From Candidatus Kuenenbacteria bacterium (GTDB lineage: Bacteria > Patescibacteriota > Patescibacteriia > UBA2196 > GWA2-42-15): a stretch of 35,170 nt of DNA. The position numbers were made by a program, and so were the translations under genes. The stretch is from positions 1 through 35,170 of the forward strand of contig JAAZOM010000031.1 in the NCBI GenBank assembly GCA_012797775.1, given 5' to 3'. The notes under the pieces are model-generated. The model worked only from the letters and a program-made list of their open reading frames with translations. It was not told where the DNA came from and did not search any database. Positions 7,192 to 35,170 of the stretch are shown here, in pieces; position 1 is the stretch's first letter, and the number at the start of each line of letters is the position of its first letter.

Positions 7192-9684
7192 ATGAAAGAT
7201 AAAAAACCAACCAAAGAAACAACCCCAGAGGAAATTACCCCCTTTGCCGAGGCTATTGAACCACGTGAAATCGTCCAGGAAATGCGTGAATCCTATCTAG
7301 ACTATGCCATGTCTGTTATTGTGGCGAGAGCCTTGCCCGATGTTCGTGACGGTCTCAAACCAGTACATCGTCGGATTCTTTATGCCATGTGGGATATTGG
7401 GCTAAAGCCCAGCGCCAAATTCCGAAAGTCTGCCACCGTTGTCGGCGAGGTCTTGGGCAAATATCACCCCCATGGCGATGCCGCTGTTTATGACTCCATG
7501 GTTCGCTTGGCTCAAAATTTTTCTATGCGCTACCCACTAGTCCATGGTCAGGGGAACTTTGGTTCTATGGATGGTGATGGCGCTGCGGCCATGCGCTACA
7601 CCGAAGCCAAACTTGCCTCTATCTCCGAGCAAATGCTTGCTGACTTAGAAAAAGATACCGTCAATTTTATCGCCAATTACGATGGTACTCAAAAAGAACC
7701 CCAAGTCCTGCCAGCCAAACTGCCCAACCTCCTCCTAAATGGCTCTCTTGGTATTGCCGTTGGTATGGCCACCAGTATCCCCCCGCACAATTTGGGCGAA
7801 GTAATTGATGGCATCTGCCATCTCATTGATCATCCCGACGCTGACCTCGACGAACTGATGGAGCACATCAAAGGACCAGACTTCCCTACTGGTGCTTCTA
7901 TTTTCAACATTGCTGACATCAAGCAAGCCTATGCTACCGGCAAAGGGTCTATTGTCATGCGTGCTGATTCCGAAATTATTGAAACCAAAAACGGTTTTCA
8001 AATTATTATTTCTTCCGTTCCTTACCAGGTCAATAAATCAGCCCTGATCGAACGCATCGCCGAATTAGTCAAAGACAAAAAGGTTGAAGGCATCAAAGAT
8101 ATCCGTGATGAATCTGCCAAGGGCGATGTCCGTATCGTCATTGATCTCAAAAAAGATACCTACCCCAAAAAAATACTAAACCAACTTTACAAACAAACTG
8201 CCCTCCAAGGCTCATTTCATGTCAACATGCTGGCTCTCATTGACGGCATCCAGCCGCGCGTTTTAACCCTGAAAATGGTCCTCGAAGAATACATAAAACA
8301 CCAGCAAGAAATTATTGTCAGGCGCACCAAGTTTGATCTGGACAAGGCCAAAGCACGCGCCCATATCCTCGAAGGCCTTATGCTCGCTTTGAGCAAAATT
8401 GATGCTGTCATAAAAACCATCAAAGAATCCAAGGATCGCGATCAGGCCAAATTAAATTTGATGGATAAATTCAAATTGACTGAGCTTCAGGCTATTGCCA
8501 TCCTTGAAATGAAACTCCAACAATTAGCCAACCTAGAGCGCCTGAAAATCGAAACCGAGCTCAAAGAAAAAATCGCCCTGATCAAAGAACTTGAATCTAT
8601 TTTAAAAAGCAAGGACAAAGTACTCCGTATTATCAAAGATGAACTAAGGGGCATCAAAGAAAAATATAATAACGAACGCAAAACAAAAATTTTTAAAAAC
8701 GCTGTGGATAAATTTTCCCAGGAAGATCTGATACCAGACGAAAGCGTTATTGTCGTTATCACCAAAGATGGCTATATCAAACGCCTACCGCCAGACACCT
8801 TTAAAACCCAAGCTCGTGGCGGTAAAGGTGTCGCTGGAGTCACCACCAAAGAAGAGGATGCCGTAGACTCACTCTTTGCTACCACCACCCATAAGGATCT
8901 ATTATTCTTCACCACTCGTGGTCGTGTCTTCCAACTCAAGGCCTATGAAATACCAGTTGCTTCGCGCACAGCCAAAGGCCAAGCTGTCGTCAATTTCCTC
9001 CAGCTCGCCCCGGGTGAAAAAGTTTCTGCCGTTCTCTCTCTGGCCGACCTCAATACCTACAAATTTCTAGTCATGTCTACCCGTCAGGGCACTATCAAAA
9101 AAGTTGCCTTGGAACAATTTGAAAATGTCCGCCGCTCCGGCCTCATTGCCATTAAACTCAAAAGCGAAGATGTCCTCGATTGGGTAAAGCCCTCTACTGG
9201 CAAAGATGAGGTTATCCTCACTTCTACTGTCGGCCAAGCTATTAGATTCAAAGAAACCAACCTCCGCCCCATGGGTCGGACTGCCTCGGGCGTTCGCGGT
9301 ATTCGCCTAAAAAAAGGCAGTGAGGTTATTGGTATGGATATTATCAATTCCAACAACAGCAAGGGCTTTATCTTTGCTCTCTCTGCCACTGGCACTGGCA
9401 AATTAACTTCACTCAAAAATTATAAAATCCAAGGTCGCGGCGGATCTGGCGTCAAAACCATGAAGCTCACTGCCAAAACCGGCAAACTGGCCTCTTCCTT
9501 TATTGTTGACCCAAGCAATTTGCCTGAAGAAGTCAAGGGTGATCTTCTGATTATCTCCGGCAAGGGTCAAGTTATCCGCCTACCTTTGAAATCGGTCCCC
9601 AATCTCGGCCGCGACACCCAAGGCGTCCGCCTCATGCGCCTCAAAGAAGAGGGCGACGAGGTCGCCAGCGTCACTTTGATGTAA
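7192..9684 (+). CDS. gyrA: DNA gyrase subunit A
   Basis: 830 residues, normal GyrA length. Type IIA topoisomerase subunit that cleaves and rejoins DNA during ATP-driven negative supercoiling with GyrB, which is not in the window. The winged-helix/tower part carries the catalytic tyrosine Y136 in [10 protein letters not shown] and the quinolone-determining region around [13 protein letters not shown]. Position 97, equivalent to E. coli Ser83, is alanine; D101, equivalent to Asp87, is kept. The C-terminal beta-pinwheel contains the GyrA box as QARGGKG (540-546), which supports gyrase over topoisomerase IV. It follows the MBL-fold and small membrane protein genes after a 50-nt AT-rich spacer and ends at a strong terminator. 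Confidence 0.97.
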
Positions 9685-9705
9685 TCAACTATTCACCTCA
9701 ATTTC

Positions 9706-9740
9706 AAAAACCCCGCTATCCCACGGGGTTTTTCCTTTTT
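9706..9740 (+). terminator. Bidirectional terminator between gyrA and the charged orphan gene
   Basis: AAAAACCCCG (9706-9715) pairs with CGGGGTTTTT (9724-9733) and is followed by CCTTTTTT. The minus strand also carries a T-tract, so it can serve the convergent gene at 9744. Confidence 0.85.
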
Positions 9741-9743
9741 TAG

Positions 9744-10283
9744 CTAAGCCGCTCTTCTCCCGCCTTCTTTATATCCCTTCTCTTTCTCTCCCTCTTCCCC
9801 AATATCCCCATACTCCCTGATTTCTTCCGCGATCTCTTCTTCATATTTCGTTTCCATTGTGTCATCTGTTTCGTCCGTTGAGTCCTCTGTTCCATCCAAG
9901 GAATCACGCTCCCACATCTCTTCATAAGCTTTACTCTGATTCTCCTTCATACTTATTGCTGTTCTTCGCTCTTTTCTATCGTTTCCTCCCCTGTAAAAAC
10001 TTTCCTCAAAATGTCCCAATCTCCTGCTCCCCTTTTTATCCTTATCACCTTTAAACTCATTTCCACCCACCACCCGCTGTGGCCCACTTCTATCCATGCC
10101 TTCTGTGTTTGGCACCACCTTCTTTTGGATTTCTTTATATGGGTCTTCTACTTTTTGCCTCTTGCTTTCTGAGCCCACCACTTTAAACCCTGAATTTCTT
10201 GTTATCTCATCTTCATGGTCTCTCTCCCACTGAGGAAATTTACCTCTTTCAGTAGGATATCCAACCTTTATTGATCTCCCCAT
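9744..10283 (-). CDS. Highly charged hypothetical protein, 179 residues
   Basis: I do not recognise this protein. It is extremely hydrophilic, rich in Glu, Lys, Arg, Asp and Gly, with almost no hydrophobic clusters, so it is probably intrinsically disordered. There is no cysteine and no signal peptide. The C-terminal half is acidic (EEEIAEEIREYGDIGEEGE). Support for a real gene comes from a good promoter at 10311-10339, a leader of about 20 nt to the ATG, and a terminator directly after the stop codon. Against it, the composition makes reading frames easy to retain by chance, and another frame is open over part of it. Confidence 0.55.
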   Translation of the reverse strand: MGRSIKVGYPTERGKFPQWERDHEDEITRNSGFKVVGSESKRQKVEDPYKEIQKKVVPNTEGMDRSGPQRVVGGNEFKGDKDKKGSRRLGHFEESFYRGGNDRKERRTAISMKENQSKAYEEMWERDSLDGTEDSTDETDDTMETKYEEEIAEEIREYGDIGEEGEKEKGYKEGGRRAA

Positions 10284-10310
10284 ATTTTTTATCTTAATTA
10301 TTATATCTAA

Positions 10311-10339
10311 ATTTTACCCCCCCCACATACTCACGTCAA
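10311..10339 (-). promoter_or_regulatory. Promoter of the 179-residue charged protein gene
   Basis: On the minus strand, -35 TTGACG (10334-10339), 17-nt spacer ending in a run of eight G, -10 TAAAAT (10311-10316). Confidence 0.65.
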
Positions 10340-10353
10340 ATAACCAAAAGTGA

Positions 10354-10392
10354 AAAACCAAAAACCACTCCGATATTCATCAGAGTGGTTTT
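10354..10392 (-). terminator. Terminator of the tRNA-Arg/tRNA-Lys unit
   Basis: AAAACCACTC (10361-10370) pairs with GAGTGGTTTT (10383-10392), with an inner GAT/ATC extension. On the minus strand TTTTTGGTTTTTC follows. Confidence 0.75.
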
Positions 10393-10404
10393 AAAATTAT
10401 TATA

Positions 10405-10477
10405 TACCCTGTGTAGGGTTCGAACCTACGACCATCTCCTTAAGAGGGAGCCGCTCTACCAACTGAGCTAACAGGGC
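10405..10477 (-). tRNA. tRNA-Lys (CUU)
   Basis: Minus-strand cloverleaf with acceptor GCCCTGT/ACAGGGT, so the first pair is G1-U72. The discriminator is A and CCA is not encoded. The anticodon loop CTCTTAA gives anticodon CTT. The T-arm contains GGTTCGAACC. Confidence 0.93.
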
Positions 10478-10486
10478 ATAAATTCA

Positions 10487-10560
10487 TACGCCCGCCAGGA
10501 TTTGAACCCGGAACCTTCTGGTCCGAAGCCAGACGCTCTATCCGGTTGAGCTACGGGCGC
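10487..10560 (-). tRNA. tRNA-Arg (UCG)
   Basis: Minus-strand cloverleaf with acceptor GCGCCCG/CGGGCGT, again a G1-U72 first pair. The discriminator is A and CCA is not encoded. The anticodon loop CTTCGGA between TCTGG and CCAGA gives anticodon TCG. It is 9 nt upstream of tRNA-Lys, so both probably come from one precursor. Confidence 0.93.
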
Positions 10561-10591
10561 AAAAATACCAAAACGGGATAATTATTTACTA

Positions 10592-10640
10592 ATTTTAAAA
10601 AATAATAAAGCGCTTTATAAAATCAATGCTATTGAAGCAC
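10592..10640 (-). terminator. Probable terminator of the HU gene
   Basis: On the minus strand AATAAAAGTGCTT can pair imperfectly with AAAGCGCTTTATT, with G-U pairs and a long loop. ATTTTTT follows. Confidence 0.45.
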
Positions 10641-10667
10641 TTTTATTCTCCCTATATTTCTTGCCAA

Positions 10668-10949
10668 CTATTTGCTCTTCAGCGCGTCTTTCAAGGTCTT
10701 CCCTGCCCGAAATTTCGGTACTGTCACTGCTGGCACCTGGATTCTTTCCTCTGGTTTCTGCGGATTGACTCCACCTCTGGCTGATCTGAATTTGGCGATA
10801 AATGTACCAAATCCGGTCAAGGTCACCTCATCGCCTGCTTTGAGCTGTTCGATCACTGTTGCTTCAAAAGAATCCAAGACCTGCAGCACATGTCTCCTGT
10901 CTACTCCGGTTTTCTCGGCAATTTTTTCTATTAAACTAGCTTTGTTCAT
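10668..10949 (-). CDS. DNA-binding protein HU
   Basis: 93-residue histone-like protein that bends and compacts DNA as a dimer. The N-terminal helices read MNKASLIEKIAEKTGV, the hinge GFGTFIAKFRSARGGVNPQ, and the C-terminus PKFRAGKTLKDAL. The Arg-Asn-Pro region (RSARGGVNPQ) that intercalates DNA is intact. It has full family length. The promoter's -10 lies only about 8 nt upstream of the ATG, so the mRNA may be leaderless or nearly so. It sits downstream of ymdB but has its own promoter. Confidence 0.96.
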   Translation of the reverse strand: MNKASLIEKIAEKTGVDRRHVLQVLDSFEATVIEQLKAGDEVTLTGFGTFIAKFRSARGGVNPQKPEERIQVPAVTVPKFRAGKTLKDALKSK

Positions 10950-10957
10950 AAAAATTT

Positions 10958-10986
10958 ATTTTATTAGGCCGGCTACTGCCAGCCAA
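10958..10986 (-). promoter_or_regulatory. Promoter of the HU gene
   Basis: On the minus strand, -35 TTGGCT (10981-10986), 17-nt spacer that itself contains GGCTGGC and GCCGGCC, -10 TAAAAT (10958-10963). Predicted start is about 1 to 3 nt before the ATG. Confidence 0.55.
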
Positions 10987-11003
10987 AAGACCTTTAGTAT
11001 TTT

Positions 11004-11798
11004 TTAAATTTTTACTTCACTATCTAGACGTTCAATTTTTTTGGCTCGCCCACTCTTCTCGTCTATCTCCACCAAAACCGCATTGATCTGTGCTATCCCC
11101 TCTTCTGGTATCTCAAATCTGGTTGGTATCTGGGTTAAAAATAAATTCAATGGCCCTTCTTTTTCTACTCCAATTATACTATCTCTGGCTCCCACCATGC
11201 CCACATCAGATACAAAAGCCGTTCCTTTGGGTAAAATTTTATTATCACTGGTCGGCACATGAGTGTGGGTGCCAAGTACTGCGCTCACCCGACCATCCAC
11301 ATACCAGCCAAAAGCATTTTTTTCCGAGGTCGCCTCTGCGTGAAAATCTACCACCACTATATCACTTTTTGCTATCTTTAGCAATTTTTCTATTTTATCA
11401 AATTCCCGAAAAGGGTCTTCAAAATTTTCCTGCAAAAATACCCGGCCATTCAGATTTATCACACAGACTCTTTTGTTTTTTATCTTGATAGTGGCATATC
11501 CTCTCCCCGGCAAACCTTCTGGATAATTGGCAGGTCGAATAATTTTATTTTCAAAATTGGTAAACACTTCTTCATAGCCCTTCTTGGCAAAAACATGATT
11601 ACCAGTCGTCACCAAATCAACCCCTGCGGCCAAAAGCTCACGCAATGTGTCTTCTGTCACTCCGGTCCCATGAGCAATATTTTCCCCATTGGCAATAATC
11701 AAATCCGACTTATATTTCTTTTTATATTTTGGGATGATCTCCGCCAGCGCCAGCCGGCCTATCTTTCCAGTCACATCACCAAAAAATATTATCTTCAT
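11004..11798 (-). CDS. ymdB: YmdB-family metallophosphoesterase
   Basis: 264 residues, the full length of the TIGR00282/YmdB family. Bacterial homologues are cyclic-nucleotide phosphodiesterases; in Bacillus, YmdB acts as a regulator whose gene lies downstream of rny. Metal-binding residues of the calcineurin-like fold are present: D8 in FFGDVTGKIGR, E39/N40 in NGENIAHG, N67/H68 in TTGNH, H153 in DFHAEATSEK, and H178/H180 in GTHTHVPT. The gene starts 5 nt after the PLC/P1-like gene and is the last of the three-gene rny operon. The ATG is the first codon of the conserved N-terminal strand. Confidence 0.93.
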   Translation of the reverse strand: MKIIFFGDVTGKIGRLALAEIIPKYKKKYKSDLIIANGENIAHGTGVTEDTLRELLAAGVDLVTTGNHVFAKKGYEEVFTNFENKIIRPANYPEGLPGRGYATIKIKNKRVCVINLNGRVFLQENFEDPFREFDKIEKLLKIAKSDIVVVDFHAEATSEKNAFGWYVDGRVSAVLGTHTHVPTSDNKILPKGTAFVSDVGMVGARDSIIGVEKEGPLNLFLTQIPTRFEIPEEGIAQINAVLVEIDEKSGRAKKIERLDSEVKI

Positions 11799-11803
11799 AA
11801 ACC

Positions 11804-12568
11804 TTAATTTTCATTATTTATTAACGCCCTACCATCTTTTATCTCCAAAAACAAAGACCACCACACCACGGCCAGGGCATATTCTATCTTTGGTATTAAT
11901 TCCTTATTTATCCTATGCCACAAAGCACGATCAAAACCATTTTTTAAAAATTCTTCATATAAACCCAGTGCTTTTATCTTCACTGCCATCGCCCCAATAA
12001 ACGCCTCCACTTCCCGGCTCTTAATTTCTTCTAGCCTATCAAATTTTGGTTTTTGACGCTTACCAAATACCTGCCAAAAATTTATAGTTGCTTCAAAAAT
12101 CATATGCCTGTTTTTTAGGCTCGACGGTCTATTCGCAAAATAATAAGGGTCTTCCCAGTCTCTATATTTTTTTATTGGCCTTACTCTCCTACCAAAATGA
12201 TGTGATGGCGACAAGGCATCCACAATAAAATGACTCATCCAAGTAAAGTCGTTCTCCCAAGGCAAATTTTGCATTGCTCGCTCCTTTGCATCTCTATATT
12301 GTCTATAAATTTGTTTTAATGCCCCACCTTGACCCGTCTCTGGATTATAATAAGACTCCGATGTTGCTCTACCCCCTTTCATCCAAAGTCTGTCTGGCCC
12401 ATAAGCCCCATCATATTTAAAAACATCTTTCATTTTTATAAAATCACCAAATTCTGGCTTGAGTTCTTGCAACGCCCTGTAAGTATCATAATAAATCAAA
12501 CTATGACTGTCCCAACGCAACCAAGCCGGTGGAAAAGAAAGAATTGAACTTATTACCCCAGAATTCAT
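11804..12568 (-). CDS. Hypothetical protein with a PLC/P1-nuclease-like motif
   Basis: 254 residues, no signal peptide or clear membrane segment. The stretch FTWMSHFIVDALSPSHHFGR (109-128) resembles the HxxxD...H zinc-site helix of zinc-dependent phospholipase C and S1/P1 nucleases. H113, D117, H123 and H124 are candidate ligands, with further histidine at 22 and aspartates nearby. These families normally act outside the cell after export, and no export signal is visible here. The gene lies between rny and ymdB (gaps of 40 and 5 nt), so a role in RNA or nucleotide turnover is suggested by position only. The family assignment is tentative. Confidence 0.6.
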   Translation of the reverse strand: MNSGVISSILSFPPAWLRWDSHSLIYYDTYRALQELKPEFGDFIKMKDVFKYDGAYGPDRLWMKGGRATSESYYNPETGQGGALKQIYRQYRDAKERAMQNLPWENDFTWMSHFIVDALSPSHHFGRRVRPIKKYRDWEDPYYFANRPSSLKNRHMIFEATINFWQVFGKRQKPKFDRLEEIKSREVEAFIGAMAVKIKALGLYEEFLKNGFDRALWHRINKELIPKIEYALAVVWWSLFLEIKDGRALINNEN

Positions 12569-12608
12569 AATAAAACTAAATTAATTTTGAGTTTTAACTT
12601 TTAAGTTT

Positions 12609-14123
12609 TTATCTGGCATATTCCTCTACCCGCGTCTCTCTTATCACCAACACTCTTATCTCACCTGGGTATTTCAACTCCTGCTCTATTTTATCAGCTA
12701 CCTCTCTGGCCAATTTTTTAGCACCCCAATCATCCACCACGCTTGGTTCCACAAATACCCGCAATTCTCTGCCCGCCTGTATCGCATAAACCTTTTCCAC
12801 CCCAGCAATATTTTTGGCAGTATTTTCGAGATCATCCAAACGCTGTACATATTGCTCATAAGTATCCTTTCTAGCCCCTGGCCTTGCCCCAGAAATTGCA
12901 TCCGCTGTTTTTACTATAACACCTTCGAGAGATTCTGGGTGGTCCTGATGATGTTCCAAGGAGACTCTGGCTATTTCTTCTGGCAAGCCAAACTTCTTCA
13001 TAATATCATAGCCAATCTCTGGATGCCCGCCTTTTACTTCATGATCAACTGCTTTGCCAATGTCGTGTAAAAGGCCTCCTTTTTTGGCAATCGCCACGTC
13101 TGCTCCAAGATCCTGGGCCAAAAGTCCTGATAACAAAGACACCTCTATTGAGTGCTGCAAAACATTGTGTCCATAACTGGTTCTGTATTTCAAACGGCCC
13201 AAAATTTGCACCAATTTTGGATCCAATCCGCCAACTCCCACAGTATACATAGCGTCTTCGCCTGCTTTTTTTATTTCAATAGATAAATCCTTTTTTGCAG
13301 CTTCTATTGCCTCTTCTATCCTACCTGGATGAATCCGGCCGTCAGCCATCAATTTTTCCAGAGCCACTCTGGCAACCTGCCTTCTAATTGGGCTAAAACC
13401 AGACACCCAAATTGTACCCGGAGTTTCATCGACAATCAATTCTGTCCCGGTCAATTGTTCAATTGCTTTTATGTTGCGTCCCTCTTTGCCGATTATTCTC
13501 CCCTTCATCTCGTCACTCGGCAGGTTGACAGTTGTCGTGGTCGTTTCAGCCGAATGTGAGGTAGCACAACGCTCTATTACCGATGACAAGATATGTTTGG
13601 CTTTTTCCTCGAGCTCCTCTGTGGTCTGTCTTTCTAATTTACGTACCCTATTATAAAGCTCCTCTTTTACCTCGGACTCCACGTTATTAATCAAAACCTG
13701 CTTCGCTTCATCCTTGGTCAAAGCAGCTATCTTCTCCAGCTTTTCCATGCCCCGCTCCTTTATCTTTTGTAAATCTTCCTTCAGGGCGTCTATACTTTTT
13801 TCTTTTTCAGACAACTTTGTCCTCTTATCCTCAAATTCCAAAAGCTTTTGGTCAAACATCCCTTCTCTTTTTTCCAGTCTTCGTTGGATCTCCAAAAGCT
13901 CCCTGCGTCTCTTGTCTTCCTCTTGTTTGGCGTTTTCCAAGACCTCCAAAGATTTATTTTTGGCTTCCAAAATAAGTTCTCGATATTTATCCTTAGCTTC
14001 GGAAATTATCTTTTCTACTCTAGCCTCGGCTGTCTGGGCATCGTGCTTCGCAATAGTACGACGAAAATAGTACCCGACGGTCACGCCTATACCGAGTACT
14101 AGCAAAAATATTAAAACTTCCAT
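12609..14123 (-). CDS. rny: Ribonuclease Y
   Basis: Membrane-anchored endoribonuclease of 504 residues that starts mRNA decay. It has an N-terminal TM segment (about 2-20), a long charged coiled coil (about 25-180), a KH domain with GRIIGKEG at 208-215, and an HD domain with H353/D354 in LLHDIGKAVDHE. Length and order match Firmicutes RNase Y. AAGGGGA lies about 6 nt before the ATG. It is first in an operon with the PLC/P1-like gene and ymdB. It is transcribed from 14398-14426 through an unusually long leader of about 270 nt containing hairpins and a T-run, which suggests post-initiation control. Confidence 0.97.
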   Translation of the reverse strand: MEVLIFLLVLGIGVTVGYYFRRTIAKHDAQTAEARVEKIISEAKDKYRELILEAKNKSLEVLENAKQEEDKRRRELLEIQRRLEKREGMFDQKLLEFEDKRTKLSEKEKSIDALKEDLQKIKERGMEKLEKIAALTKDEAKQVLINNVESEVKEELYNRVRKLERQTTEELEEKAKHILSSVIERCATSHSAETTTTTVNLPSDEMKGRIIGKEGRNIKAIEQLTGTELIVDETPGTIWVSGFSPIRRQVARVALEKLMADGRIHPGRIEEAIEAAKKDLSIEIKKAGEDAMYTVGVGGLDPKLVQILGRLKYRTSYGHNVLQHSIEVSLLSGLLAQDLGADVAIAKKGGLLHDIGKAVDHEVKGGHPEIGYDIMKKFGLPEEIARVSLEHHQDHPESLEGVIVKTADAISGARPGARKDTYEQYVQRLDDLENTAKNIAGVEKVYAIQAGRELRVFVEPSVVDDWGAKKLAREVADKIEQELKYPGEIRVLVIRETRVEEYAR

Positions 14124-14240
14124 ATTTATTCCCCTTGAAATTAAAGAAGGAGGAAATTTTACACTCTAAAAATCTACCTGAGATAAAACAACTGGCCCTA
14201 AGACAAAAAGCCCCAAAGCCTCTTTGAGAAAAAGAAAAAT

Positions 14241-14390
14241 TTTAAACTAAAACTAGTAAAAGAAAACATTTAGTTTAAAAAAACAGTTCCTGTCTCTTGC
14301 CCTTATCTCCCGTTACCGATATTTGAGAGTGCCCTCTTTCCAATCCCCTGCTTTAAAAATTTAATTTATATAAAATCAGCTTTTTCAAGC
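14241..14390 (-). promoter_or_regulatory. Long structured leader of rny with possible attenuator
   Basis: From the promoter the minus-strand RNA first contains nested helices: AGAG(GGCA)CTCT, TATC/GATA and CTCT/AGAG between about 14292 and 14333. Next is a short hairpin ACAG-GAA-CTGT (14283-14293 on the map) followed by seven U (14277-14283). Then comes an 11-bp AT-rich hairpin whose arms are 14241-14251 and 14269-14279. The U-run overlaps the arm of the later hairpin, so the two folds compete. I do not recognise a known riboswitch class. Confidence 0.4.
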
Positions 14391-14397
14391 TATTTCT

Positions 14398-14426
14398 AGC
14401 ATATCATAAATCACCGCTTTTGGCAA
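14398..14426 (-). promoter_or_regulatory. Promoter of the rny operon
   Basis: On the minus strand, -35 TTGCCA (14421-14426), 17-nt spacer, -10 TATGCT (14398-14403). Predicted start is near 14391. Confidence 0.6.
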
Positions 14427-14461
14427 GCCTTCTAATATAAAGCCAAGCTAATTTTTCACCC

Positions 14462-17747: not shown

Positions 17748-18050
17748 TTATCTATCATAACCACCGCGATTGCCGCCGCGGAATCCGCCAGCTGGTCTCT
17801 CTTCGCGTGGTCTAGCTTCACTCACGATGATCTTTCTCCCGGCCATTTCCTGACCGTTCAAAGCTTCAACCGCTTTTTTAGCTTCTTCTTCACTAGACAT
17901 TTCCACAAATCCAAAACCCTTGCTGCGGTTGTTGAATTTGTTGATCACTACGGAAGCAGAAACTACTGTACCAACTTGGCCAAAAAAATCAGCCAATTGC
18001 TGGTCATTGGTCTCGTAGGGCAAATTGCCTACAAATAACTTCGTTGCCAT
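17748..18050 (-). CDS. RRM-type RNA-binding protein
   Basis: 100 residues: one RNA recognition motif plus a short Gly/Arg tail. RNP2 is LFVGNL (5-10) and RNP1 is KGFGFVEM (44-51), both intact. The tail reads GGFRGGNRGGYDR, as in the small glycine-rich RRM proteins of cyanobacteria and other bacteria that are often cold-induced. The ATG at 18050 begins directly at the RRM. A longer frame starting from GTG at 18113 would run through the structured leader and is rejected. No Shine-Dalgarno sequence is visible, and the ATG lies 6 nt beyond the closing stem of the leader. It likely acts as an RNA chaperone or post-transcriptional regulator, possibly on its own mRNA. Confidence 0.93.
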   Translation of the reverse strand: MATKLFVGNLPYETNDQQLADFFGQVGTVVSASVVINKFNNRSKGFGFVEMSSEEEAKKAVEALNGQEMAGRKIIVSEARPREERPAGGFRGGNRGGYDR

Positions 18051-18056
18051 AACAAA

Positions 18057-18130
18057 TTTTCGTTTATATTGCGAGATTACTCTCGCCTTTTCTTCTTTAC
18101 GACCTATTAGCACGCACCTATAAACGAAAA
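18057..18130 (-). promoter_or_regulatory. Structured leader of the RRM gene
   Basis: A 12-bp perfect inverted repeat, TTTTCGTTTATA (18057-18068) against TATAAACGAAAA (18119-18130), closes a 50-nt domain. That domain contains a second perfect hairpin, GCGAGA-TTAC-TCTCGC (18071-18086). An alternative AACGA/TCGTT hairpin is possible at the 5' side. The closing stem ends 6 nt before the start codon. Confidence 0.55.
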
Positions 18131-18174
18131 CTCGTTATTTAAGATGCAAAATTATTAAAGAAGTCTGTGAAAGC

Positions 18175-31760: not shown

Positions 31761-34193
31761 TTAAAAATTATATTTATTTTCATCTGTTTTGTTTTCTTTT
31801 GTTCCCGCTTCTTCCTCTATCTCCTCGGATTCTTCCGAATCTGATATTTCCTCTTTTTCTTCCAGCTCTTCAGCTGCCAATTCCTGTTCTTCAATTTCCT
31901 CCTCACTCCCCTCTCCTGAATAGTCATCCTCCTGTTCTATTTTGCCAACCTGTCCGTCCTCCAGTAGACGGTTGTTTTCATGCTTTAGTTCCCTTGCACT
32001 CGCCTGTTCTATATATTCCCCTGCTATATCTCTCTCTCCTGTTTTTATTAATATCTCCCTGGGCTTTGCTCCATCGGCCGGACCCACCACGCCTTGCTGT
32101 TCCAATAAATCCAAAATCCTAGCCGCTCTGGCATAACCGATCTTCATCTTTCTCTGCAAATATGAGGCCGAGGCTTTTCTGTCATTTATAATTATATCCC
32201 TTGCTTCCTCCAATCGATCCTCCTCTCCATCGTCATCTCCATTCAATACAATCCCACCAAGCCCCAATGTTTGCTGTTTTTCCGTCACCTCATCGACATA
32301 ATCAGGGTCCCCAATCTTTCTCAAGTGTGCAGTCACATTTTCTATATCACTATCAGAACAAAATGCTCCTTGTATTCTCTTTGGCTTGGACAACTCCGCC
32401 GAAGTATAAAGCATATCTCCTCTACCCATCAACTTCTCTGCGCCAGATGAATCCAATATTGTTCTAGAGTCGGTCAATGATGCCACAGAAAAAGCTATTC
32501 TGCCGGGGATATTAGCCTTGATCACGCCCGTAATAATATCCACGGAAGGCCTCTGTGTCGCCAATATAAGATGAATACCAACTGCTCGAGACATCTGCGC
32601 CAAACGGATAATCGCCGCTTCCACCTCCGGACCAGACGCGGACATCAATGTAGCCAGCTCATCAATTATAAAAACAATATATGGCAACTTATCAGCCGGG
32701 TATGACTGATTATAACTCTGAATATTTCTTTTCCCAGCATTAGACAAAACATGAAACCGCCTCTCCATTTCACTGATCGTCCACCGGAGAGCATTAATGG
32801 TCTTTTTTACCTCTGTCACCACCGGCGATAGAAGATAAGGAATGCCCTCATAAGAAAGCATCTCTACTCTTTTTGGATCAACCAATATAAACTTCAGCTC
32901 ATCTGGCTGGTTTTGGTATAAAAGAGATAATATCATCGCATTCAAACCAACCGTCTTCCCCGATCCAGTCGTCCCAGCCACCAATAGGTGGGGCAACTTT
33001 GTCAGATCAGTCATACAAGCATTGCCAGCCACATCCTGCCCCAAAACAATTGTCATGTTTGATTTTCTTTCTTTAAAGGCCTGTGATTCAAGCACTTTTC
33101 TGAGAGGCACTATGGCTATCTTGCTATTTGGTACCTCTACTCCGACTAGGGACTTGCCCGGTATCGGCGCTTCAATTCTGATCGGATGCGCGGCCAAGGA
33201 CAAGGCCAGGTCATTACTCAAAGCCAAAATTCTGGACAACTTTACTCCGTCAGCCGGCCGAAAAGTATATTGGGTCACTGTCGGACCGATCGCATAACCA
33301 GCCATCTCTACCTCAATACCAAAATGTGATAATGTCTTTTTAATCTTCTCCTGACAAAAAACAATATCTCTAGCTGTTGGTTTCCCCTCCTTGCCATCCA
33401 ATAAATTCATAGGCAACACAACTGGTGGATATTTTTTTCTCTCCTTCTTTGTCTCCGCTCCTTCACCCCCCTCCTCTAATGTTTGATTTTCTATTTCTCC
33501 TGCTTCTGTTCCCACTTCTTCTTTTGCCTTATCGACAACTTCTTCTTGACCCTCCTCGACATCAGGTACCTCCCTCTCCTGAAAATCTACTACCGGGCTC
33601 TCGCCCATCTCTTCCATCCTTTTCTCTATTTTTTTAAGACGACGATAATGAAAAAACTCTCTCACTCTCTGCCTCAAATTTTTTAATGTTATTCTTTCTA
33701 TTAAATTTTCCAAGGTTGTATTAAATAAAAGCAGAACCCCCACTGTGAGCATCGCTATCATCACTACCAGGCTCCCCCATCTGCCCATTATCTGCAAAAA
33801 CGGCCACAAAACAGCATAGCCAAAATAACCACCGCCAATTCCCCTCTCCAAGGCCTCATCTATCATCTTTGGTTCACGCACCAGATGAAATATTGCCGAA
33901 TATCCCATCACTGTCAAAGCCATGCCCACCCAATTGGCGCCTTTAAAAAAATTCTTATGCGGAAAAAGAGCAAAATAGCTGGCTAAAAGTAAAATCAAAG
34001 GAAATATCCAAAAACCCCAGCCAAATATCGCTTTCAAAATCTGGAAAACCGCCCGGCCAAAAGCCCCAGCCTGATCAAAGATAGACAAAAGACTAAGCAG
34101 GGACAAAGCTATCAAAACCACGATCAAAATACCTCTCCTGGTTGGTGGCTCTACCTCCCCAAATTCCACTAATTTTCCTCGTTTTTTGGCCAT
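31761..34193 (-). CDS. ftsK: DNA translocase FtsK
   Basis: 810 residues. About four N-terminal TM segments (roughly 20-160) are followed by a charged linker (about 185-255, rich in Glu). The RecA-like motor has Walker A GTTGSGKT (407-414) and a Walker B region IVFIIDELATLM near 500. The winged-helix gamma domain (about 645-705, ASASYLQRKMKIGYARAARI) reads orienting sequences and can activate Xer recombinase. An unusual strongly acidic tail of about 80 residues (after about 725) follows gamma. It pumps DNA at the division septum. It is downstream of a Xer-type gene and starts the ftsK-rodZ-recA operon from the promoter at 34229-34257. Confidence 0.96.
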   Translation of the reverse strand: MAKKRGKLVEFGEVEPPTRRGILIVVLIALSLLSLLSIFDQAGAFGRAVFQILKAIFGWGFWIFPLILLLASYFALFPHKNFFKGANWVGMALTVMGYSAIFHLVREPKMIDEALERGIGGGYFGYAVLWPFLQIMGRWGSLVVMIAMLTVGVLLLFNTTLENLIERITLKNLRQRVREFFHYRRLKKIEKRMEEMGESPVVDFQEREVPDVEEGQEEVVDKAKEEVGTEAGEIENQTLEEGGEGAETKKERKKYPPVVLPMNLLDGKEGKPTARDIVFCQEKIKKTLSHFGIEVEMAGYAIGPTVTQYTFRPADGVKLSRILALSNDLALSLAAHPIRIEAPIPGKSLVGVEVPNSKIAIVPLRKVLESQAFKERKSNMTIVLGQDVAGNACMTDLTKLPHLLVAGTTGSGKTVGLNAMILSLLYQNQPDELKFILVDPKRVEMLSYEGIPYLLSPVVTEVKKTINALRWTISEMERRFHVLSNAGKRNIQSYNQSYPADKLPYIVFIIDELATLMSASGPEVEAAIIRLAQMSRAVGIHLILATQRPSVDIITGVIKANIPGRIAFSVASLTDSRTILDSSGAEKLMGRGDMLYTSAELSKPKRIQGAFCSDSDIENVTAHLRKIGDPDYVDEVTEKQQTLGLGGIVLNGDDDGEEDRLEEARDIIINDRKASASYLQRKMKIGYARAARILDLLEQQGVVGPADGAKPREILIKTGERDIAGEYIEQASARELKHENNRLLEDGQVGKIEQEDDYSGEGSEEEIEEQELAAEELEEKEEISDSEESEEIEEEAGTKENKTDENKYNF

Positions 34194-34228
34194 ATTTGTT
34201 AAAAATTTTAAATCTTATATTCCTTATT

Positions 34229-34257
34229 ATTTTAGCATTTTTTGGCTTTCCCGCCAA
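34229..34257 (-). promoter_or_regulatory. Promoter of ftsK
   Basis: On the minus strand, -35 TTGGCG (34252-34257), 17-nt spacer, extended -10 TGC then TAAAAT (34229-34234). A weak TTTGGC/GCCAAA hairpin overlaps it and may end the upstream recombinase transcript. Confidence 0.55.
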
Positions 34258-34276
34258 ACCCAATTATAACGGACTT

Positions 34277-35089
34277 TTACAGCGGACTCTTAATATTCTT
34301 CAAACTTGGATTGGTCACTTTGGTATATATTTGTGTTGTCCTGATATTGGCATGCCCCAAAAGCTCTTGCACATAGCGCACATCCACTCCGTTTTCCAAG
34401 AGGTGCGTGGCAAAGCTATGGCGCAAACTATGAAAACTCGCCGGCTTTTTAATACCCGCTTTTTTCAAAGCCGCATAAAAAACCTTTTGCGCGCTAGCCT
34501 CGGTCAATCGGCCGCCGCGATTACTTTCAAAAATATAATCATCGCTCCTCTTACCCGCCATTATTTTTTCTAGATCAGCTACCAGTTTTTTAGACAAAAT
34601 TGTCAAACGATCTTTCCTGCCCTTGCCTTGTCTCACCAACAAAGTCAATTCTTTGACATCTATATCCGCTACCTTTAAACCCACCACCTCGCTCACTCGC
34701 AAGCCCGCTCCATAAGCTAGGGCAACTATAAGTTTATGCTTTAAATTTTCAATACAGTCTATCATATTTTTAATTTCCTGCCGGCTCAAAACCACCGGCA
34801 ATTTTTGGGTTTTCTTGGGATGTTTTAACTTTTCAAAACCATCCTTCTTATAAATATCACGAAAAATAAAATTTATAGCGTTGGCATAAAGGGCTATCGT
34901 TTGACTGGCCATTTTCTTTTCCTGTTTTTTCAATAAATAGTCTTTGATTTCTTCCATTGACAATTCTCGCAATGGTTTCTTGCAACAATTATACAAATCA
35001 CGTGCTACAAAAGTATAGCTCTTTATGGTTTTGGGGCTATAATTGCGCAATTTAAGCTCTTGAATTATAATATCAATGAGGTTCATCAT
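34277..35089 (-). CDS. Xer-family tyrosine recombinase
   Basis: About 270 residues. A SAM-like core-binding domain (about 1-90, LKLRNYSPKTIKSYTFVARD) is followed by the catalytic domain with the complete R-K-H-R-H-Y set: R131 (GLRVSE), K156 (QGKGRKDR), H220/R223 (HSLRH), H246 (LLGHANI) and Y255 (TTQIYT). It resolves or integrates DNA through a 3'-phosphotyrosine link. Size and motifs fit XerC/XerD/XerH; placement next to ftsK favours chromosome-dimer resolution, although integron- or phage-type integrases look similar. A perfect TATAAT ends 2 nt before the first ATG (35095), so the ATG at 35089 is chosen and the mRNA may be leaderless. Confidence 0.92.
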   Translation of the reverse strand: MMNLIDIIIQELKLRNYSPKTIKSYTFVARDLYNCCKKPLRELSMEEIKDYLLKKQEKKMASQTIALYANAINFIFRDIYKKDGFEKLKHPKKTQKLPVVLSRQEIKNMIDCIENLKHKLIVALAYGAGLRVSEVVGLKVADIDVKELTLLVRQGKGRKDRLTILSKKLVADLEKIMAGKRSDDYIFESNRGGRLTEASAQKVFYAALKKAGIKKPASFHSLRHSFATHLLENGVDVRYVQELLGHANIRTTQIYTKVTNPSLKNIKSPL

Positions 35090-35097
35090 ACCCATTT

Positions 35098-35126
35098 ATT
35101 ATACTCTAAGTATAGATAACCTACAA
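35098..35126 (-). promoter_or_regulatory. Promoter of the Xer gene containing a recombinase half-site
   Basis: On the minus strand, weak -35 TTGTAG (35121-35126), 17-nt spacer, perfect -10 TATAAT (35098-35103). The spacer contains GTTATCTATAC (35110-35120 reversed), identical to one arm of the adjacent palindrome. Confidence 0.6.
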
Positions 35127-35132
35127 ATTTTT

Positions 35133-35164
35133 GTTGTTATCTATCAAAAAGTATAGATAACAAC
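35133..35164. other. Candidate dif-like or attachment site
   Basis: GTTGTTATCTAT (35133-35144) and ATAGATAACAAC (35153-35164) are perfect 12-bp inverted arms around the 8-nt centre CAAAAAGT. Read as a Xer site it gives an 11-bp arm TGTTATCTATC, a 6-bp centre AAAAAG, and an 11-bp arm TATAGATAACA. A further direct copy of one arm (AAGTATAGATAAC at 35108-35120 and 35149-35161) lies 41 bp away. It sits directly upstream of the Xer gene. Confidence 0.5.
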
Positions 35165-35170
35165 TAGTTA

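Follow-up and report, generated by a model that had tools for sequence, protein, structure and literature searches.

A probable chromosomal integron of Patescibacteria with an integrase that lacks the I2 helix

The window analysed here is a stretch of 35,170 nt from a Candidatus Kuenenbacteria bacterium. It is the entire contig C31 (JAAZOM010000031.1) of a 930-kb, 31-contig genome (G000, GCA_012797775.1), and the end of its sequence is the end of the contig. A palindrome near this end, together with a third copy of its arm, is very likely the attI-type site of a chromosomal integron of this Patescibacteria (candidate phyla radiation, CPR) bacterium, with the adjacent tyrosine recombinase gene as its integrase. 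The Patescibacteria probably have a distinct class of integron, which would capture gene cassettes without the I2 helix of the canonical integrase IntI and largely without extrahelical bases in the attC sites. This class may be a surviving stage from before I2 or an independent solution.

The palindrome has perfectly complementary outer arms of 12 bp around an 8-bp middle at 35145-35152 (Table 1). An earlier note on this DNA, made from the sequence alone, had described both these arms and an 11 + 6 + 11 structure at 35135-35162 with arms complementary at 10 of 11 positions, and direct reading of the sequence bears out each description. Perfect 12-bp arms with a gap of 4-10 bp are expected 0.03 times in a random sequence of the window's size and composition; the window has 8 repeats of this kind in total. 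The third arm is identical to 35149-35161 at 13 of 13 positions and is located inside the 17-bp spacer between the -35 and -10 boxes of the recombinase promoter. The -35 box is weak, and the consensus scan did not return this promoter. The sequence stops six bases past the palindrome, which is three bases past a predicted G|TT crossover. A search of the whole genome found one other full copy of the palindrome (C11:28490-28515), which also has the third arm beside it with one base changed. The 13-mer arm has no further occurrence in the genome when up to one mismatch is allowed.

Comparison of homologous sites indicates that the palindrome is kept in relatives that retain the recombinase. The earlier note had placed the third arm in the promoter spacer, and this position appears meaningful, as the layout is conserved in these relatives. 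In 12 of 16 homologous attI sites, the crossover and the direct copy of the arm are exactly 47 nt apart, and none of 2000 shuffles gave inverted and direct repeats as good as those of attI. In most relatives the arm is TTATNCGAA, which is close to the attC R box GTTATNCGAAA; therefore, it is plausible that one protein binds both. By its sequence layout the locus agrees with an integron, having a tyrosine integrase gene with an attI at its 5' end and a G|TT crossover. The Xer-like tyrosine recombinase encoded next to the palindrome very probably uses it as a target, as the earlier note had proposed. Its further suggestion that the recombinase represses its own gene is plausible, since the promoter arm is part of the conserved attI layout.

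The palindrome is read as an attI because its copy on C11 heads a series of oriented cassettes with attC sites. The attI at C11:28490 is followed by five cassettes in one orientation, each with a single open reading frame and with matching start and end boxes. A flippase gene is located on the other side of the attI, and the array terminates beside smc. The units begin with a TTRNNC-like start and end in a long imperfect palindrome that opens with the reverse complement of the first bases of the same unit; unit 2, for example, starts with GTTAAGTG and ends with CACTTAAC. Contig C29, when read from its end, starts with GTTAGACGAAA, which is an exact cassette start, and its first attC opens with TCGTCTAAC, the matching closure. 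Six cassettes are present on C29, reaching the rpoB-rpoC region. The closure between start and end boxes is better than in all 2000 permutations. Oriented arrays with matching boxes, as expected of an integron, are thus found on both C11 (5 cassettes) and C29 (6 cassettes). Among the proteins encoded by the C29 cassettes are a ChaN-like protein, an HD protein, a DUF2726 protein and an rRNA methylase of the RrnaAD family. Also encoded are a helicase-like protein and a DNA methylase, which together resemble type III restriction-modification, and an AlbA_2 protein.

C31 ends in CTAG|TTA and C29 opens with G|TTAGACG. Both breaks fall at the predicted crossover, and the window's own array probably continues on C29. 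Of 26 integrase contigs, 8 break off less than 1 kb away on the array side and 0 on the other side. In three integrase contigs (of G000, G003 and G012) an intact integrase is followed on its attI side by no more than about 120 bases. Variation of the first cassette in the population would lead to breaks on the array side, and assembly difficulty caused by the repeated attC sites could add to them.

The attC sites have a uniform geometry that follows the order R''-spacer-L''-loop-L'-spacer-R' (GTTRRRY) of integron attCs. R'' ends in AAC and is followed by 1 nt, an 11-bp L'', the loop, an 11-bp L', 4 nt and the GTT of R'. Exact sites of this (1,11,4) type number 40 in 641 kb of sequence from this genome and its relatives, whereas shuffled sequence gave 1. 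Counted on the opposite strand, these same sites make up the mirror class (4,1). The attI layout together with the (1,11,4) attC also occurs in one Peregrinibacteria genome (L114). The length of the sites ranges from 64 to about 550 nt, with the R''-L''...L'-R' spacing kept exact and the L helix kept complementary though its sequence varies. When the sites were folded as DNA, the bottom strand was more stable in 38 of 40 (p=1.5e-9), which is the bias known from integrons. Extrahelical bases in the L'' arm, a feature of integron attCs, were not found as a rule. An unbulged L stem of 10-11 bp at the exact 1-nt spacing is present in 39 of 59 motif-defined sites, and about a dozen of the 59 are better matched when a single bulge is allowed. 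The central spacer, with 1 nt against 4, gives the sites their constant strand asymmetry. Since the stems are mostly unbulged and the integrase has no I2, the reader helix and its target are reduced together. A search of Rfam found no family that matches these attCs.

The recombinase contains the PF00589 and Phage_int_SAM_4 domains and scores 234.8 bits with NF040815, above the cut-off of that profile. Its catalytic residues R133, K158, H222, R225, H248 and Y257 are invariant in 24 homologues, as expected of a tyrosine recombinase. The integron integrase profile TIGR02249 gives 203 bits, below its cut-off of 265, and no protein in this genome or in 17 relatives scores above that cut-off. The alignment to TIGR02249 falls into two pieces (model positions about 2-180 and 235-315), with about 181-235 missing in every member checked. 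These positions hold the additional domain specific to IntI, of which the I2 helix is a part. The corresponding segment (residues 177-201 of the window protein) is 25-27 residues long in 30 of 30 Patescibacteria members, and 25 in the window protein, versus 66-67 in canonical IntIs; about 42 residues, including I2, are therefore absent. The C-terminus ends in ...SPL, as in IntI, and the AlphaFold model (mean predicted local distance difference test score, pLDDT, 89) has the Vibrio integron integrase 2a3v as its best PDB match. A tree built by a quick method, after removal of the insert columns, groups the canonical IntIs in one clade (support 100) and 25 of the Patescibacteria proteins in another (support 97), with five more divergent Patescibacteria proteins outside the 25-member clade. 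On its sequence, the recombinase is a member of a Patescibacteria clade outside IntI and not a canonical IntI. The genome also has a separate housekeeping Xer (C15:20313), which is a different protein. The host group belongs to Patescibacteria; metagenome-assembled genomes of Magasanikbacteria (63%), Moranbacteria, Peregrinibacteria and Gracilibacteria provide the closest named relatives. Relatives in the viral collection have at most 44% identity, which is below the Patescibacteria clade.

Two further homologues were observed. A Gracilibacteria gene (L116, 208-1017) has seven in-frame stops under translation table 11, probably because TGA encodes glycine in this organism (table 25). HGW-Firmicutes-8 (L117), which is outside Patescibacteria, encodes a short integrase of this type at 47% identity, and upstream of it is one attC-like site with 4- and 7-nt spacers. 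Integrons without I2 possibly occur outside Patescibacteria.

Distribution was analysed in 380 genomes spread over the phylum, with a recombinase match over 200 bits defining an integrase carrier and the L'-R' half of the site, ACWTCNNNTANNNNNNDACGTTR, serving as the attC motif and its reversed pattern as the control. The recombinase is patchy and is present in about 53 of the 380. The motif occurs in 37 of 53 carriers versus 27 of 327 other genomes (Fisher p=1e-21). In 56 relatives about 107 matches to the motif were counted, where the control pattern has 6, and its co-occurrence with the integrase has p=0.0015; both co-occurrence p-values are optimistic since the genomes are related. In every case compared, motifs within about 20 kb of the integrase on the same contig are on the attI side and read away from it.

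Several observations concern the variety of these loci. Two genomes, G012 (C15, C46) and G038 (C12, C33), each have two integrase genes of this family. In some genomes with attC arrays the integrase genes are split or interrupted by stops (G051:C18, L091; G005:C5), indicating that the integrase has been lost repeatedly. Near-identical cassette starts (GAAATATTCCTTTTCTTTT..GGGCTATCGCCC..TTGTTTTAAAA) are located upstream of the integrase in G014, G046, G011 and G038 (L029, L017, L021, L027), and their presence across different families suggests recent exchange of cassettes. In the present genome, C11:24880-28560 (L038) is an orphan attI with five cassettes and no integrase gene, located between smc and the flippase gene. 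The promoter -10 beside this attI copy is lost, and one of the cassettes encodes a SemiSWEET/PQ-loop-like protein. On C29 (L087), a single cassette of about 5 kb (9391-14449) carries the DNA methylase, helicase-like and AlbA_2 genes, resembling a restriction-modification system. The cassette at the end of this contig (17338-18216) encodes the RrnaAD-family rRNA adenine methylase, which belongs to the superfamily of KsgA and Erm.

In the proposed mechanism, the integrase would bind the attI arms, and circular gene cassettes would be inserted at the G|TT by recombination between attI and the attC of the cassette. The attC would most likely be used as a folded bottom strand, as in known integrons, and arrays of cassettes would accumulate on the attI side. 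Integrase bound at the promoter arm would probably damp its own transcription.

Some points weigh against reading the locus as an integron of this kind. Published descriptions make the I2 helix the part that recognises the extrahelical bases of attC, and one that IntI needs to capture cassettes (PMC7790495; also PMC9668308), so an enzyme without I2 must work differently. The tree does not resolve how the recombinases are related at its deep nodes. A scan limited to promoter consensus found no plus-strand promoter (cassette promoter, Pc) in 34200-35170, and the joining of C31 to C29 is drawn from their matching ends only. The strict attC motif is lacking in 16 of the 53 integrase carriers. Conversely, 27 genomes have the motif without the integrase; these seem to be a mixture of orphan arrays and chance single matches, with many of the single matches in integrase-free genomes occurring near the control rate. 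The case is also made at the level of sequence, where the attI, the attCs, the cassette arrays, their co-occurrence with the integrase and the absence of I2 can be read directly, and from which we infer integrase binding, recombination, strand choice and autorepression.

The locus could be the same integron with a different chemistry, in which the I2-less integrase recombines attC as double-stranded DNA by a Xer-like two-strand exchange. The absence of the I2 domain and of extrahelical bases in most L stems would fit such an exchange, and a GTTAT-type sequence common to the attI arms and the attC R boxes makes sequence-specific recognition of double strands conceivable. IntI1 itself retains double-strand activity (PMC4792948). 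However, the spacing of the attC palindrome is exact, the L complementarity is kept and the bottom strand is favoured in nearly every site. Since neither an exact palindrome nor a strand bias is needed for double-strand recombination, this explanation is considered unlikely. It is much less likely still that the cassettes and attCs are moved by the canonical IntI of other organisms while the short recombinase has another job. The stated need for I2 in capture (PMC7790495) and the attC arrays without a recombinase in some genomes (for example G042, with 11 motif matches) would agree with a foreign IntI, but attI and arrays are found at the 5' end of the short recombinase in many families, with strong co-occurrence. 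In addition, none of the 18 genomes has an IntI above the cut-off, the attC geometry is unlike the canonical one, and conserved arms lie in the promoter of the recombinase itself.

The earlier note had favoured a dif site which, with a dedicated Xer and FtsK, would form a self-contained dimer-resolution cassette. A Xer-like recombinase, a palindromic core and an adjoining ftsK gave reason for this, and the proposal is rejected here, with hardly any probability left to it. The genome has two copies of the site and not one, each heading a cassette array with attC sites. The recombinase is patchy across the phylum and accompanied by a separate Xer, and of the relatives tested only G000 and G002 have ftsK beside the integrase, so this adjacency is local and not conserved. 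A search of the genome for an E. coli-like dif pattern returned only matches with three mismatches, near the control level, and no clear dif. Equally improbable is the att site of an integrated mobile element, such as a prophage or an integrative and mobilizable element, or an invertible promoter switch. A tyrosine recombinase does lie beside an inverted repeat, and recombination between the two copies in the genome is conceivable, but no element genes are present on either side; the flanks are cassettes on one side and ordinary chromosomal genes (ftsK and recA; smc and the flippase gene) on the other. The earlier note's alternative of an integrated element using a nearby att site came closer in spirit, with the element being an integron instead.

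Table 1. Features at the attI end of the window and the neighbouring chromosomal gene.
Feature	Position	Strand	Basis
attI site (direct repeat, DR1-like arm, L arm, crossover)	35104..35167	+	position, layout and crossover conserved in relatives
Predicted crossover G|TT	35167..35168	+	same junction in relatives; C29 begins G|TTAGACGA
Left palindrome arm GTTGTTATCTAT, DR1-like, R-box orientation	35133..35144	+	direct reading, inverted-repeat conservation
Right palindrome arm ATAGATAACAAC, L box of attI core, adjoins crossover	35153..35164	+	direct reading
Third arm copy GTTATCTATACTT, direct repeat in integrase promoter spacer	35108..35120	-	direct copy +47 nt in relatives
Integrase promoter -10 box TATAAT, with -35-like TTGTAG at 35121-35126	35098..35103	-	direct reading, consensus only
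Integron-integrase-like tyrosine recombinase, 272 aa, without IntI-specific (I2) domain	34277..35095	-	profiles, alignment, predicted structure
First three bases (TTA) of putative first cassette	35168..35170	+	contig end; continuation on C29 from matching ends
ftsK, neighbouring chromosomal gene outside the system	31761..34193	-	Pfam; adjoins integrase only in G000 and G002 (same-family genome)

Elsewhere in the window, a 12-bp inverted repeat (18047-18140) is located around the start of a gene for a small RNA-binding (RNA recognition motif, RRM) protein and is a possible regulatory hairpin.

The I2 helix and the extrahelical bases of attC have been presented as partners in coevolution whose origin is a chicken-and-egg problem (PMC4792948): as long as there is no attC, I2 has nothing to do, and as long as there is no I2, nothing reads attC (PMC4792948, PMC7790495). 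Integron models take I2 as defining and necessary. A natural I2-less integron with attC arrays would make this problem directly testable, and its recombinase may show how integrons work, or began, without that helix. Searches specific for IntI may miss these integrases, since none in the 18 genomes passes the TIGR02249 cut-off, so a gene-capture system may have been overlooked in an understudied phylum, where about one in seven of the genomes sampled has it. No report of CPR integrons was found in the open-access literature (bioRxiv, most subscription journals and supplementary files being outside this scope), and a prior report elsewhere is possible. Arrays with restriction-modification-like, rRNA methylase and transport genes suggest how bacteria with minimal genomes could gain or swap accessory genes.

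The system shares several features with canonical integrons (class 1, the Vibrio superintegron and archaeal integrons, PMC9668308), including an attI at the integrase 5' end, the G|TT, extra direct repeats in attI, R''/L''/L'/R' attCs, a bottom-strand fold bias, oriented single-gene cassettes and arrays without an integrase gene. It differs from them in the shorter integrase outside the IntI clade, in attCs with 1- and 4-nt spacers, an 11-bp mostly unbulged L stem and few extrahelical bases, and in a host phylum from which the literature searched holds no integron report. With IntI (TIGR02249; 2a3v) the recombinase shares the best PDB fold and the ...SPL end, and it differs in its lower profile score and the missing model segment. 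Its size, domain make-up and NF040815 score are those of XerA, XerC, XerD and the archaeal Xer proteins (NF040815; 5hxy, 4a8e); unlike these, it is patchy, is associated with an attI and a cassette array, and occurs beside the housekeeping Xer. The nearest single-strand case without I2 is the integration of CTXphi by XerCD (PMC4792948), which also uses a folded single-strand site without extrahelical bases and an I2-less Xer enzyme. CTXphi hijacks the host XerCD at dif, whereas the system described here seems to have a dedicated recombinase with its own attI and cassette arrays.
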